Shown here: positions 8,688-11,310 of the stretch, piece by piece
Position numbering within the stretch: position 1 is the first letter of the stretch
Layout of the letters: the number at the start of each line of letters is the position of its first letter
Origin: a virus
Length of the DNA stretch: 22,952 bases
IMG/VR virus record: IMGVR_UViG_3300003323_000682
Coordinates: 1-22,952 of that record
Direction: 5' to 3' (one strand)
Program-made: the position numbers and the translations under genes
Notes under the pieces: generated by a model
Databases searched by the model: none
The model's input: only the letters and a program-made list of their open reading frames with translations
What the model was told of the DNA's origin: nothing

Positions 8688-9095
8688 TCAGCTCCACGTC
8701 GGCGCGGTGCCGTCGGCCAGCACACCGGGCGCCGTCCAGGTCAGCTCGCCGCTGGCCGCGCGAGTGAGCTGATAGTCGGTGAACAGCATCTCCATGGCCA
8801 GGGTCTGGCCGGACACGCCGATGGACACGGTGCGCGCGACCGATGTGGACGGCACGGTCTTGAACACGGCATGGGACTTGCTGGCCGCGTCGTTGAAAAC
8901 GCCGTTGGCGGTGACCGTGCCGTCGGCCAGGAGCAGGAGGCGCTCGTAGGCGCTCTTGTCCAGGCCGGTCACGTCTTGCACGCCGCGCGGCGTGGCGATG
9001 GCGATGTTGGTGCAGTCGTTCTTGATGTCGCACACGCTGCCAGCCGAGTCGTCCACCGAGAAGGTGGACCAGCCCAGGCCTGTCTCCTTCGCGAT
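8688..9095 (-). CDS. Tail tube-like protein (major tail protein paralog 1), apparent AUC start
   Basis: About 135 residues. The N-terminus reads (I)AKETGLGWSTFSVDDSAG, then IATPRGVQDVTGLDKSAYER and LLLLADGTVTANGVFNDAAS, and ends APGVLADGTAPTWS, a pattern I recognise from actinophage major tail proteins. Such proteins begin with MAKxTGLG, so translation should start at 9095, but that codon is ATC. A strong AAGGAGGG lies nine bases upstream of it. The next downstream GTG (9056) would delete the conserved N-terminus, and the only other near-start codon is CTG at 9125 without a Shine-Dalgarno; an in-frame TAG at 9134-9132 closes the frame. Product and family are fairly clear, the start is not. 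It shares local motifs with the protein at 10100-10834. Confidence 0.75.
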   Translation of the reverse strand: MAKETGLGWSTFSVDDSAGSVCDIKNDCTNIAIATPRGVQDVTGLDKSAYERLLLLADGTVTANGVFNDAASKSHAVFKTVPSTSVARTVSIGVSGQTLAMEMLFTDYQLTRAASGELTWTAPGVLADGTAPTWS

Positions 9096-9103
9096 ACCTA
9101 CTG

Positions 9104-9111
9104 CCCTCCTT
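9104..9111 (-). promoter_or_regulatory. Strong Shine-Dalgarno supporting the AUC start
   Basis: The minus strand reads AAGGAGGG, about as good an anti-16S match as anything in this window, followed nine bases later by ATC GCG AAG. It decides where translation of the tail-tube-like gene should begin, although no canonical start codon is there. It overlaps the -35 box (9110-9115, + strand) of the divergent HNH gene. Confidence 0.7.
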
Positions 9112-9138
9112 GACCTGCGGTCCAGGCGAGACTATTCT
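9110..9138 (+). promoter_or_regulatory. Sigma70-like promoter for the HNH gene
   Basis: TTGACC at 9110-9115, a 17-base spacer, and TATTCT at 9133-9138. The -10 box ends seven bases before ATG 9146, so the transcript would start at or next to the A of the start codon. No Shine-Dalgarno precedes the ATG, which fits a leaderless mRNA. This is the best -35/-10 pair I found in the window. Confidence 0.65.
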
Positions 9139-9145
9139 CATACCC

Positions 9146-9622
9146 ATGACCGAACTTATACCGCAGCTTTGCGCATGCGGTTGTGGCGAAATGGCTACCG
9201 TCGATCTCCGGCGGAAGCGAGTGTCCAAATTCAAGGCCGGACACAACAGCAAGATCAATCATCCGATGCAGGGTAAGCATCACTCCGACGAAACCCGCGC
9301 CCATCTCGCCAGCTTTACGGGCGAGCGCGCTTCGTCGTATAAGCATGGATGGTCCACCACTCCCACATGGAAGTCCTGGAAGTGCATGCACGAGCGCTGC
9401 ACTGACCCGCGTAACGCGTCGTACAAGAGTTACGGGGCGAAAGGAGTCACCGTCGATCCGCGCTGGGACGACTTCTTGAACTTCCTCGCGGACATGGGCG
9501 CAAGGCCTGGCAAAGAGTGGCAACTCGATCGCATCGATCCGGAGAGGGGATACGGCCCGGGTAACTGCCGCTGGCTGACCAAGGAAGAGAACAACGCCCG
9601 TCCCCGGCGCAAACGTCAGTAG
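9146..9622 (+). CDS. HNH homing-endonuclease-like protein with NUMOD3-like module
   Basis: 158 residues. Order of parts: a CxCxC cluster (C9, C11, C13) possibly binding zinc, a basic stretch with KFKAGHN, a NUMOD3-like DNA-binding motif GKHHSDETRAHLASFTGE (about 43-60), then the phage HNH/AP2-type nuclease region: CMHERC (80-85), YGAKGVTVDPRW (96-107), DMGARPG (116-122), LDRIDPERGYGPGNCRW (128-143). Free-standing enzymes of this type nick or cut DNA at intron- or gene-less alleles and spread into them. It is the only gene on the + strand inside the late operon. It ends seven bases from the convergent upstream tail gene and starts 50 bases from the divergent tail-tube-like gene, so it looks inserted. 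Codon use has more AT-rich third positions (ATA, AAA, AAT) than its neighbours. ATG 9146 is chosen from the promoter position; the in-frame ATG at 9110 precedes the promoter. Confidence 0.85.
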   Translation: MTELIPQLCACGCGEMATVDLRRKRVSKFKAGHNSKINHPMQGKHHSDETRAHLASFTGERASSYKHGWSTTPTWKSWKCMHERCTDPRNASYKSYGAKGVTVDPRWDDFLNFLADMGARPGKEWQLDRIDPERGYGPGNCRWLTKEENNARPRRKRQ

Positions 9623-9629
9623 CATGCGG

Positions 9630-10100
9630 TCACCCCTGCTTTCGCGCTTCGGCCAGGCGCTGCAGGTGCTCGCCCATGTCGTCGCGCCAGTCCTCCGGGC
9701 GTTGGTGCAGCCGGGACCAGCCGGTCGGATTCCCGCGCCAGTCCCCGTCGCGAACCAGCAGCCGCGGCGGCCGGCTCAGCGGCGCCCGGTGCCGCTTCGG
9801 GTGGCCGGGCGTGGACCGCGGGCAGAGCTGGCCGGCCGGGAACACGAACACGATCTGCTGCGGCCCGGTGATCTCCTCGGTGAAGCGCAGCCCGGATTGC
9901 CGGATCCAGGCCGCGGCGTTCTGGCCGTCCTGTGTGGACAGGTCCAGCGGCGTGCGCCAGCCATCGAGATAGCGCGGGCAGTCCACCTCGGCGCAGGTGG
10001 CCACCCGCCAGTGCGTGGCGAGGGGCTGCTGCAAGGCGTACGTGCGTACGGCTTTGACCGGCAGCTTGGGCGGGATGCGGAAGATCTGCGGCTGGAACAT
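9630..10100 (-). CDS. Conserved actinophage tail-region protein of unknown function
   Basis: 156 residues. Recognisable elements: PLATHWRVATCAEVDCPRYL with two Cys near residues 36-41, GWRTPLDLST, a central IVFVFPAGQLCPRSTPGH with a third Cys, and a C-terminal GDWRGNP...RLHQRPEDWRDDMGEH helix. Proteins with this THWR-x-A-T-C-x-E-V-D-C start recur between tail tube and chaperone genes in actinophages. Spaced Cys residues hint at a metal or structural site. Its start overlaps the upstream tail-tube gene stop (TGATG), so it is translationally coupled. The downstream operon continuity is interrupted by the inverted HNH gene. I know of no function. Confidence 0.75.
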   Translation of the reverse strand: MFQPQIFRIPPKLPVKAVRTYALQQPLATHWRVATCAEVDCPRYLDGWRTPLDLSTQDGQNAAAWIRQSGLRFTEEITGPQQIVFVFPAGQLCPRSTPGHPKRHRAPLSRPPRLLVRDGDWRGNPTGWSRLHQRPEDWRDDMGEHLQRLAEARKQG

Positions 10101-10834
10101 CAGAACACCACCGCCGTTTGGTTTCTCACCGCGAGGACCTGGAACTGTGCGTTGGAGAACGTCCCCGTGCTGACCGCGCGCAGGTAGCGCCGCACCGTGC
10201 CGGACACCGCGATTCGCTGCGCGCTGACCGCGCCGGCGTTGACGGCAGAAAAGGCGGCGCCGGACAGATCAGCCCAGGAAGAGTTGTCGGCCGAGTCCTG
10301 GATCTTCACCGTGCAGCTCGTACCGGTAACCGATGTCATGTGCAGATAGAACTGGGCGCCGTTGGTGGTGGCCGCGCCACCGTCCAGGCTCGCCCCGTTG
10401 GTGCCGGTGGTGTCCGTGCGCACCCAGTTGGTGAGCTGCTCGCCCCACTCCAGGCCGTAGCCGTCGGACTGCACGGCCACCGCGAACGACAGCGAACCGT
10501 CCTGACCGCGGGTGGGGTTGTAGTCGATCTGCAACCCGTAGCAGGCGGCGCCGGCGTTGCCGATCAGCGCGCCGCGGCCGTAGGTGGCGATAGTGTCCGT
10601 GCGCGGCAGAGCGGCCAGCGCGGGATGGGCGCGGCCGGCCGCGTCGTTGAACCAGGCGGTGAACGACATGCCACCGTTGCGGTCCCCGCCCAGACGCTCG
10701 GGGCCGTCCTTGTCGATGCCGGTCACCTCGAGCGCGGCCGGCCCGCCGTTGATCTGCTGGATGCTGCCGATGTCGCCGGACAGCTCGTAGCCGCCGACGG
10801 CGAACCGGTCGCCCAAACCTGTCTGCTTGGCCAC
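10100..10834 (-). CDS. Tail tube protein (major tail protein paralog 2)
   Basis: 244 residues starting (V)AKQTGLGDRFAVGGYELSG, then GGPAALEVTGIDKDGPER, MSFTAWFNDAAGRAHPALAA, a DGSLSFAVAVQSDGYGLEWG core and a C-terminal beta-sandwich-like part (CTVKIQDSADNSSWADLSG, VSGTVRRYLRAVS). This is the pattern of actinophage major tail proteins, which polymerise into the tail tube; the extra C-terminal domain would decorate the tube surface. I start at GTG 10834, which forms a TAGTG overlap with the preceding stop and aligns the N-terminus with AKxTGLG; an in-frame GTG at 10852 is less likely. The shared AKxTGLG, VTGxDK and FNDAA signatures mark it as a relative of the shorter protein at 8688-9095. Confidence 0.8.
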   Translation of the reverse strand: MAKQTGLGDRFAVGGYELSGDIGSIQQINGGPAALEVTGIDKDGPERLGGDRNGGMSFTAWFNDAAGRAHPALAALPRTDTIATYGRGALIGNAGAACYGLQIDYNPTRGQDGSLSFAVAVQSDGYGLEWGEQLTNWVRTDTTGTNGASLDGGAATTNGAQFYLHMTSVTGTSCTVKIQDSADNSSWADLSGAAFSAVNAGAVSAQRIAVSGTVRRYLRAVSTGTFSNAQFQVLAVRNQTAVVF

Positions 10835-11310
10835 TACGGCACCTGCTCCCACGCGTCGTTGATGATCATGGGTACGGTGATGGTCATGATCCGGTGCGTC
10901 ACCCCGCCCTGGCCGCCGATCTGCACATAGCCGGCCTCAGCGCTCAGCTCCGCCCCGCCGGCGCCCAACAGATCGATATTGCGGATCAGGCCGGCCAGGG
11001 TGAACTCGCCCGAGTAGGCCACCATCAATTCGTTGGTGACCGTGAGTAGTAGCGGATCGATCTGGTCGTCCTGCTCCACGCCGCCACCGGAGAGCATGGG
11101 CAGATACAGCCGCACGTTCATCACCAGGTAGGCGCTGGTCGCGGCCAGCCCGGACTCGATCGCGTGCGGGCGCAGCGCGTTCATCCACACCGAGCACGTC
11201 AGATTGGTGCCGGGCGGGGACTTCGGCTCGAAGCTGTTCACCCGGTCGAACCGGCCGGTCAACTGGGCATGGGACATGAGCGCGTCGGTGATGGCCTGAA
11301 TGTCGATCAT
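10834..11310 (-). CDS. Tail terminator-like / tail completion protein
   Basis: 158 residues, beginning MIDIQAITDALMSHAQLTGRF, then VNSFEPKSPPGTNLTCSVWM, and ending RIMTITVPMIINDAWEQVP. This matches in pattern the actinophage protein encoded just before the tail tube gene, in the slot of the tail terminator that caps the tube and joins it to the head. Start and stop are both coupled: ATGA overlap with the upstream gene and TAGTG overlap with the tail tube gene. Function is from gene order and family resemblance. Confidence 0.75.
   Translation of the reverse strand: MIDIQAITDALMSHAQLTGRFDRVNSFEPKSPPGTNLTCSVWMNALRPHAIESGLAATSAYLVMNVRLYLPMLSGGGVEQDDQIDPLLLTVTNELMVAYSGEFTLAGLIRNIDLLGAGGAELSAEAGYVQIGGQGGVTHRIMTITVPMIINDAWEQVP

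Follow-up and report, generated by a model that had tools for sequence, protein, structure and literature searches.

How could a phage late operon tolerate a nuclease gene lodged, in the opposite orientation, in the 5' end of one of its tail genes? To our knowledge, selfish elements in essential genes are usually tolerated through RNA splicing, protein splicing or, in one case, ribosome hopping. The locus that raises the question lies in a window (the whole stretch of DNA analysed) of 22,952 bases with a GC content of 67%, which forms part of a 23,260-base IMG/VR virus record. The terminase, portal, protease, capsid, tail and tape-measure genes of the window are all encoded on the - strand in one operon. 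As had been claimed from the sequence alone, the HNH gene is the only clear + strand gene inside this operon; a DNA methyltransferase gene (phrog_67, 36-1247, +) lies beyond its left end. Prophage relatives of the target tail gene, TAIL1, come chiefly from actinobacteria such as Streptomyces, and a few come from MAGs of Chloroflexi and Acidimicrobiia. The features of the locus are the following:

8688..9095, - strand: TAIL1, the target gene, a major tail protein (phrog_10528)
9093..9095, - strand: new tail-gene start, a non-canonical AUC, with no in-frame ATG, GTG or TTG upstream before a stop
9098..9625, - strand: 175-aa open reading frame antisense to the HNH gene, from the orphaned ATG to a TAG; proposed ribosome conduit
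9105..9111, - strand: new tail-gene Shine-Dalgarno (SD) sequence, AAGGAGG
9110..9138, + strand: predicted HNH promoter (-35 TTGACC at 9110-9115, 17-nt spacer, -10 TATTCT at 9133-9138)
9146..9622, + strand: HNH endonuclease gene (ATG at 9146, TAG at 9620-9622, 158 aa)
9623..9625, - strand: ATG, the orphaned original TAIL1 start, abutting the HNH stop codon
9630..10100, - strand: UP, the upstream operon gene
10100..10852, - strand: TAIL2, a paralogous major tail protein (phrog_9522)

The HNH gene and its promoter

The HNH protein comprises a NUMOD3 motif, an N-terminal CxCGCG..GHN module and a DRI..NCRW catalytic region. Profile matches to NUMOD3 (PF07460, E 2e-4, above Pfam's cut-off) and to the HNH endonucleases of phrog_374 (E 3e-33) confirm the NUMOD3/HNH-type nuclease recognised by the sequence-only reading and assign the gene, by profile, to the HNH (NUMOD3) endonuclease family. 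The structure model (pLDDT 75) has a strand-strand-helix arrangement at residues 125-150; structure and fold searches with this model gave no significant structural match and none to HNH. PDB sequence matches to designed 'Pizza' proteins were judged spurious.

The promoter is the sole sigma-70-like match between 8900 and 9800, where 0.1 would be expected by chance, and its -10 box ends 7 nt upstream of the HNH ATG, so that the predicted transcript is leaderless. A TANNNT box precedes the HNH ATG by 6-8 nt in 22 of 22 distinct relatives at tail-gene 5' ends (23 of 23 inverted HNH loci if L110, a near-duplicate of L109, is counted), in forms that include TATTCT, TAATAT, TACAAT, TATACT, TAGAAT and TATCAT. 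The leaderless host-type promoter is thus a family trait and not a chance match, which upholds the earlier proposal of a TTGACC-17-TATTCT promoter seven bases before the ATG. The segment delimited by that reading, starting at 9104, corresponds to the HNH gene plus its promoter and the SD sequence.

The overlap between the -35 box and the SD sequence of the divergent tail gene, also noted earlier, is present in the window, where it amounts to 2 nt, but its standing as a key feature is not supported, as it is found in the window-like subset of loci only. The model built on it, in which late antisense transcription confines the homing gene to early infection or lysogeny and the overlap provides reciprocal regulation, has the inverted orientation and the host-type leaderless promoter in its favor. 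We nevertheless regard it as highly improbable, since the orphaned start, the recoded restart and the conservation of the antisense frame described below are all left unexplained by it. Expression of the HNH gene itself may still be early or lysogenic. By analogy with I-TevI, which represses itself at its operator (PMC2988022), the HNH protein could also bind the altered target beside its own promoter and so repress itself.

Occupied and empty alleles

Among the 229 distinct TAIL1 genes that we collected, 16 carry the cassette and 213 do not. Because empty alleles are so common at the shared site, the element is a mobile free-standing HNH cassette; the inverted mobile cassette proposed in the sequence-only reading therefore stands, and the gene is far from being fixed in all relatives. 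In cassette-free relatives, UP mostly ends 1-9 nt before the tail start. The closest homologues of the window HNH are all inverted and located at the 5' end of TAIL1 or TAIL2, the TAIL2 5' end carrying the same kind of cassette in six distinct loci of other phages. The pattern is the one by which homing endonucleases are recognised: occupied and empty alleles exist at one conserved site, and the occupied alleles differ at the presumed target.

Other nucleases are found at the same place. Two MAG contigs labelled Chloroflexi and Acidimicrobiia (L297 and L299) carry inverted endonucleases at the same tail-gene site, which have the CxCGCG..GHN N-terminal modules in common with the window HNH while their catalytic region looks different, suggesting that the modules set the target and that the nuclease part has been swapped. 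In L197 and L289, endonuclease VII-like genes occupy the UP-TAIL1 gap on the same strand, so several nuclease types exploit this spot.

The cassette lies inside the tail gene

The HNH stop codon is separated from the UP stop codon (9630-9632) by seven nucleotides, exactly as read earlier, and three of these form the orphaned ATG. The cassette is thus not simply intergenic but is embedded in the tail gene's 5' end. On the operon strand, the sequence before the HNH stop reads UP stop-CCGC-ATG in the window, AGC-GTG in L004, CCC-ATG in L011 and GCG-ATG in L316, while longer start remnants abut the HNH stop in L046 (ATGGCC), L109 (ATGGCG) and L188 (18 nt); L003 and L005 have no clear remnant of the old start. 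In L188, codons 1-6 of TAIL2 (ATGGCTAAGACCAGCGGG) lie upstream of the cassette and a recoded ATGGCGAAAACCTCTGGATTG lies downstream, with four of the five codons after the start recoded synonymously in the second copy (ATGGCGAAAACCTCTGGATTGGGT). The remnants, together with the duplicate in L188, indicate that insertion took place within the gene's first codons, with a new 5' end after the cassette.

The 5' end of the target gene is conserved as NTG-GCN-AAR...GGN-TTG-GGN, encoding MAK-x-x-GLG, and comparison of the loci suggests that the region up to codon 6/7 is likely the target. One further locus, L108, keeps TTGGCG; its TAIL1 codons 6 and 7 are separated by a putative group I intron of 223 nt, located where the cassette lies in L188. 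This candidate intron, in the 2560-2960 region (- strand), adjoins an inverted HNH gene and is proposed from a U.G-ended P1 (GGGU/GCCC), a P7 (AGACUA/UAGUCU), a terminal G and the exact restoration of the frame; an Rfam search did not recognise it. A group I intron was also considered for the window cassette and rejected, as there is no spliceable exon arrangement and no Rfam group I match (Rfam also misses the L108 intron); the tail frame of the window simply restarts.

The tail gene restarts without NTG-GC

The sequence-only reading had given the divergent tail gene its own SD sequence. The SD is there, 9 nt ahead of the ATC at 9095-9093; an ATG, GTG or TTG start ahead of the conserved N-terminus is not, the ATC being in its place. 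The suggested effect of the cassette on its neighbour's translation start is thus real and deeper than proposed, for the cassette replaces that start. Overlooked in that reading were the orphaned start, the AUC restart, the open antisense frame and the destruction of the NTG-GC motif. An assembly error was ruled out as the origin of the AUC, since AUH is found at the same codon in L004, L005, L006, L046 and others.

At the start codon, ATC, ATT, ATA or ACG is found in 12 of 16 cassette loci and in 11 of 213 cassette-free loci. A non-canonical start at all ATT and ACG loci was an idea that had to be narrowed: in L003, L007, L104, L105 and L107 an NTG stands in frame exactly three codons before the ATT or ACG, which therefore need not be the start, and in L297 and L299 a TTG precedes the SD, eight codons upstream. 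The strict cases, in which no NTG lies nearby in frame, comprise the window, L004, L005, L006, L046, L236/L238, L240, L254, L295 and L312; several positions in codons 3-12 vary freely among them.

What the intron-free cassette loci share is the loss of the native motif. NTG-GC is destroyed in 15 of 15 intron-free cassette loci, compared with 33 of 213 others (Fisher p 1e-11), the sixteenth cassette locus, L108, being left out of this count owing to the intron at its presumed cut site. In 10 phylogenetically independent pairs, a run that counts L108 as protected, the motif is lost 7.8 times with the cassette and 0.0 times in the opposite direction (median p 0.008); an earlier test of this kind, with fewer loci and low power, gave a median p of 0.125. 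For TAIL2 alone, disruption of codon 2 is not significant (p 0.10).

Two alternatives bear on these altered starts. In the first, the odd starts tune expression, a strong SD overproducing and a weak AUH start being selected, with no link to cleavage immunity. The leader AAGGAGGGCAGTAG, common to the window-like loci (the window, L004, L005, L006 and L046), indeed never occurs with ATG but always with the weak ATC, ATT, ATA, TTG or GTG. However, HNH-free loci with this leader use TTG or GTG and keep NTG-GC intact (L213, L244, L292, L294, L296), the TAIL2 cassettes keep ATG or GTG, and in L011 and L316 the ATG is kept while codon 2 is changed to Ser, a change consistent with the loss of a target but not with a weakened start. 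Tuning is accordingly an improbable explanation. The leader was also considered as cassette DNA, which was rejected because it occurs without HNH as well, ending small upstream genes (L295, L296).

In the second alternative, one old cassette spread together with its flanks and the altered starts hitch-hiked, the antisense frame being a by-product of high GC and of the 3' end of an old upstream gene. The common leader of the window-like loci speaks for shared descent, but at least six different alterations are found (ATC, ATT, ATA, ACG, Ser at codon 2, codon 2 missing), the independent-pairs test counts against it, and the TAIL2 cassettes, of different sequence, have the same stop/restart junction. 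Common ancestry with composition is, on balance, an unlikely account, though one that deserves some weight.

The first 60 nt of the gene differ at one base between L004, which has the cassette, and L024, which is empty; L024 and L025, both empty, have their upstream sequence in common, with ATTAGC in the former and TTGGCG in the latter. L024 may be a resistant or a post-loss empty allele. AUH is also present at the native start of the cassette-free loci L240, L183, L189, L236, L238, L254, L295 and L312, and the leader of several of them matches that of a cassette-bearing relative. Such cassette-free AUH loci are likely scars of cassette loss, and several of the strict cases look like such scars.

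The strand antisense to the HNH gene is open

The TAG of the antisense frame lies 2 nt before the AUC restart. Its predicted 175-aa product has no PHROG match and matches no protein family. After the HNH start, the first stop of the antisense frame falls at -5, -2, -1 or +4 of the restart in 17 of 22 loci, the +4 junctions being NTGA stop-start overlaps. Junction shuffling gives an expectation of 5.5 (P < 5e-6), a value that treats the loci as independent, whereas the common leader means that the junctions are not all independent.

Open antisense frames are frequent in high-GC genes, which favors the compositional part of the common-ancestry explanation, and openness is partly expected at the high GC3 of these genes. 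Composition falls short, however, when the same HNH family is compared at other sites and similar GC3: the codons TTA, CTA and TCA, which give antisense stops, make up 6 of 342 Leu and Ser codons in tail-site HNH genes and 37 of 415 elsewhere (p 1e-5), so that antisense stops are several-fold more frequent in the GC3-matched controls. Loci L104, L105 and L108 have a broken antisense frame, and that of L011 and L316 contains one internal stop and terminates 15-18 nt early. Openness of this frame is thus a strong but not universal feature.

In E. coli, re-initiation depends on a short distance from stop to start and is helped by an SD sequence (PMC2268962). These rules fit translational coupling at the TAG-AUC junction, without proving it.

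A proposed mechanism

Taken together, the comparisons make it probable that the locus holds a free-standing actinophage HNH homing cassette that targets tail-gene 5' ends, with a recoded restart conferring immunity and an antisense frame delivering ribosomes. The observed anatomy, conservation and statistics of the cassette suggest that it persists because its opposite strand can be read by ribosomes and because the altered tail start is not recognised by the cutter. The cassette brings a leaderless promoter of host type, keeps the strand opposite the HNH gene free of stop codons, and supplies a new SD sequence together with a restart in which the first codons lack NTG-GC. In the proposed mechanism, the HNH protein would bind and cut or nick cassette-free NTG-GC copies, and repair of the cut allele would copy the cassette in. 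The altered start or codon 2 would make the occupied allele immune, at the price, in the window phage, of an AUC start. On the late mRNA, ribosomes would load at the stranded start and translate the antisense frame to its stop, 2 nt ahead of the AUC, where they would re-initiate; operon coupling and the supply of tail protein would thereby survive the insertion.

We propose more tentatively, with somewhat short of an even chance, that the cassette is under selection on both strands, one encoding the nuclease and the other a disposable open reading frame that carries late-operon ribosomes from the captured start to the immunising recoded restart. If this is true, a selfish element can occupy an essential gene with no need of splicing, hopping or protein trans-assembly. 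The locus would then suggest another solution to the tolerance of such elements: the start codon is captured, the antisense strand stays translatable and a recoded start is supplied. The loci also provide a natural set of candidate AUC, AUU, AUA and ACG starts before a structural phage gene, and the altered starts could serve as an evolutionary read-out of the target site of the homing enzyme. Annotation pipelines that accept only ATG, GTG and TTG would truncate or miss such tail genes.

Comparison with known systems

None of the open-licence papers found describes an element that is inverted, captures a start codon, supplies a recoded restart and conserves an antisense frame all at once. The closest in logic is the MobA/gene 60 system of phage T4, in which the target gene is interrupted or bordered by a homing endonuclease and extra sequence is thought to protect from cleavage (PMC5009743). 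Both cases would involve a protective sequence and translation that copes with an interruption. In gene 60, however, ribosomes hop over a 50-nt insert, whereas in the window there is a new, recoded start and the nuclease gene is antisense.

The closest phylogenetic setting is that of ShiLan, where HNH insertions in actinophage methylases leave the host frame open and a leaderless start is discussed (PMC11855218). There too, an HNH gene lies in an actinophage gene whose reading frame stays open, but that HNH gene is an internal insertion, shares the strand of its host gene in a different frame, and is read through. The window HNH is antisense and at the 5' end, with a stop, a restart and a recoded start, and that paper does not mention reverse or antisense insertions. 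A ShiLan-type hidden HNH was considered for the window and rejected, given this orientation and the operon-strand frame, which stops before the tail start.

An inverted endonuclease gene among late structural genes is known from T4 segD, a free-standing endonuclease gene opposite to the capsid genes (PMC2988022). It differs in being of the GIY-YIG type, with no promoter found, a target that is unknown and no mention of start recoding. Mobile insertions in actinophage tail genes are represented by group I introns in phage tail and capsid genes, such as those of Cluster J mycobacteriophages (PMC3706429); L108 has a putative one beside its inverted HNH gene, whereas the window cassette is without an intron. 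Seen against these systems, the cassette is a free-standing homing cassette of a known kind in a new form.
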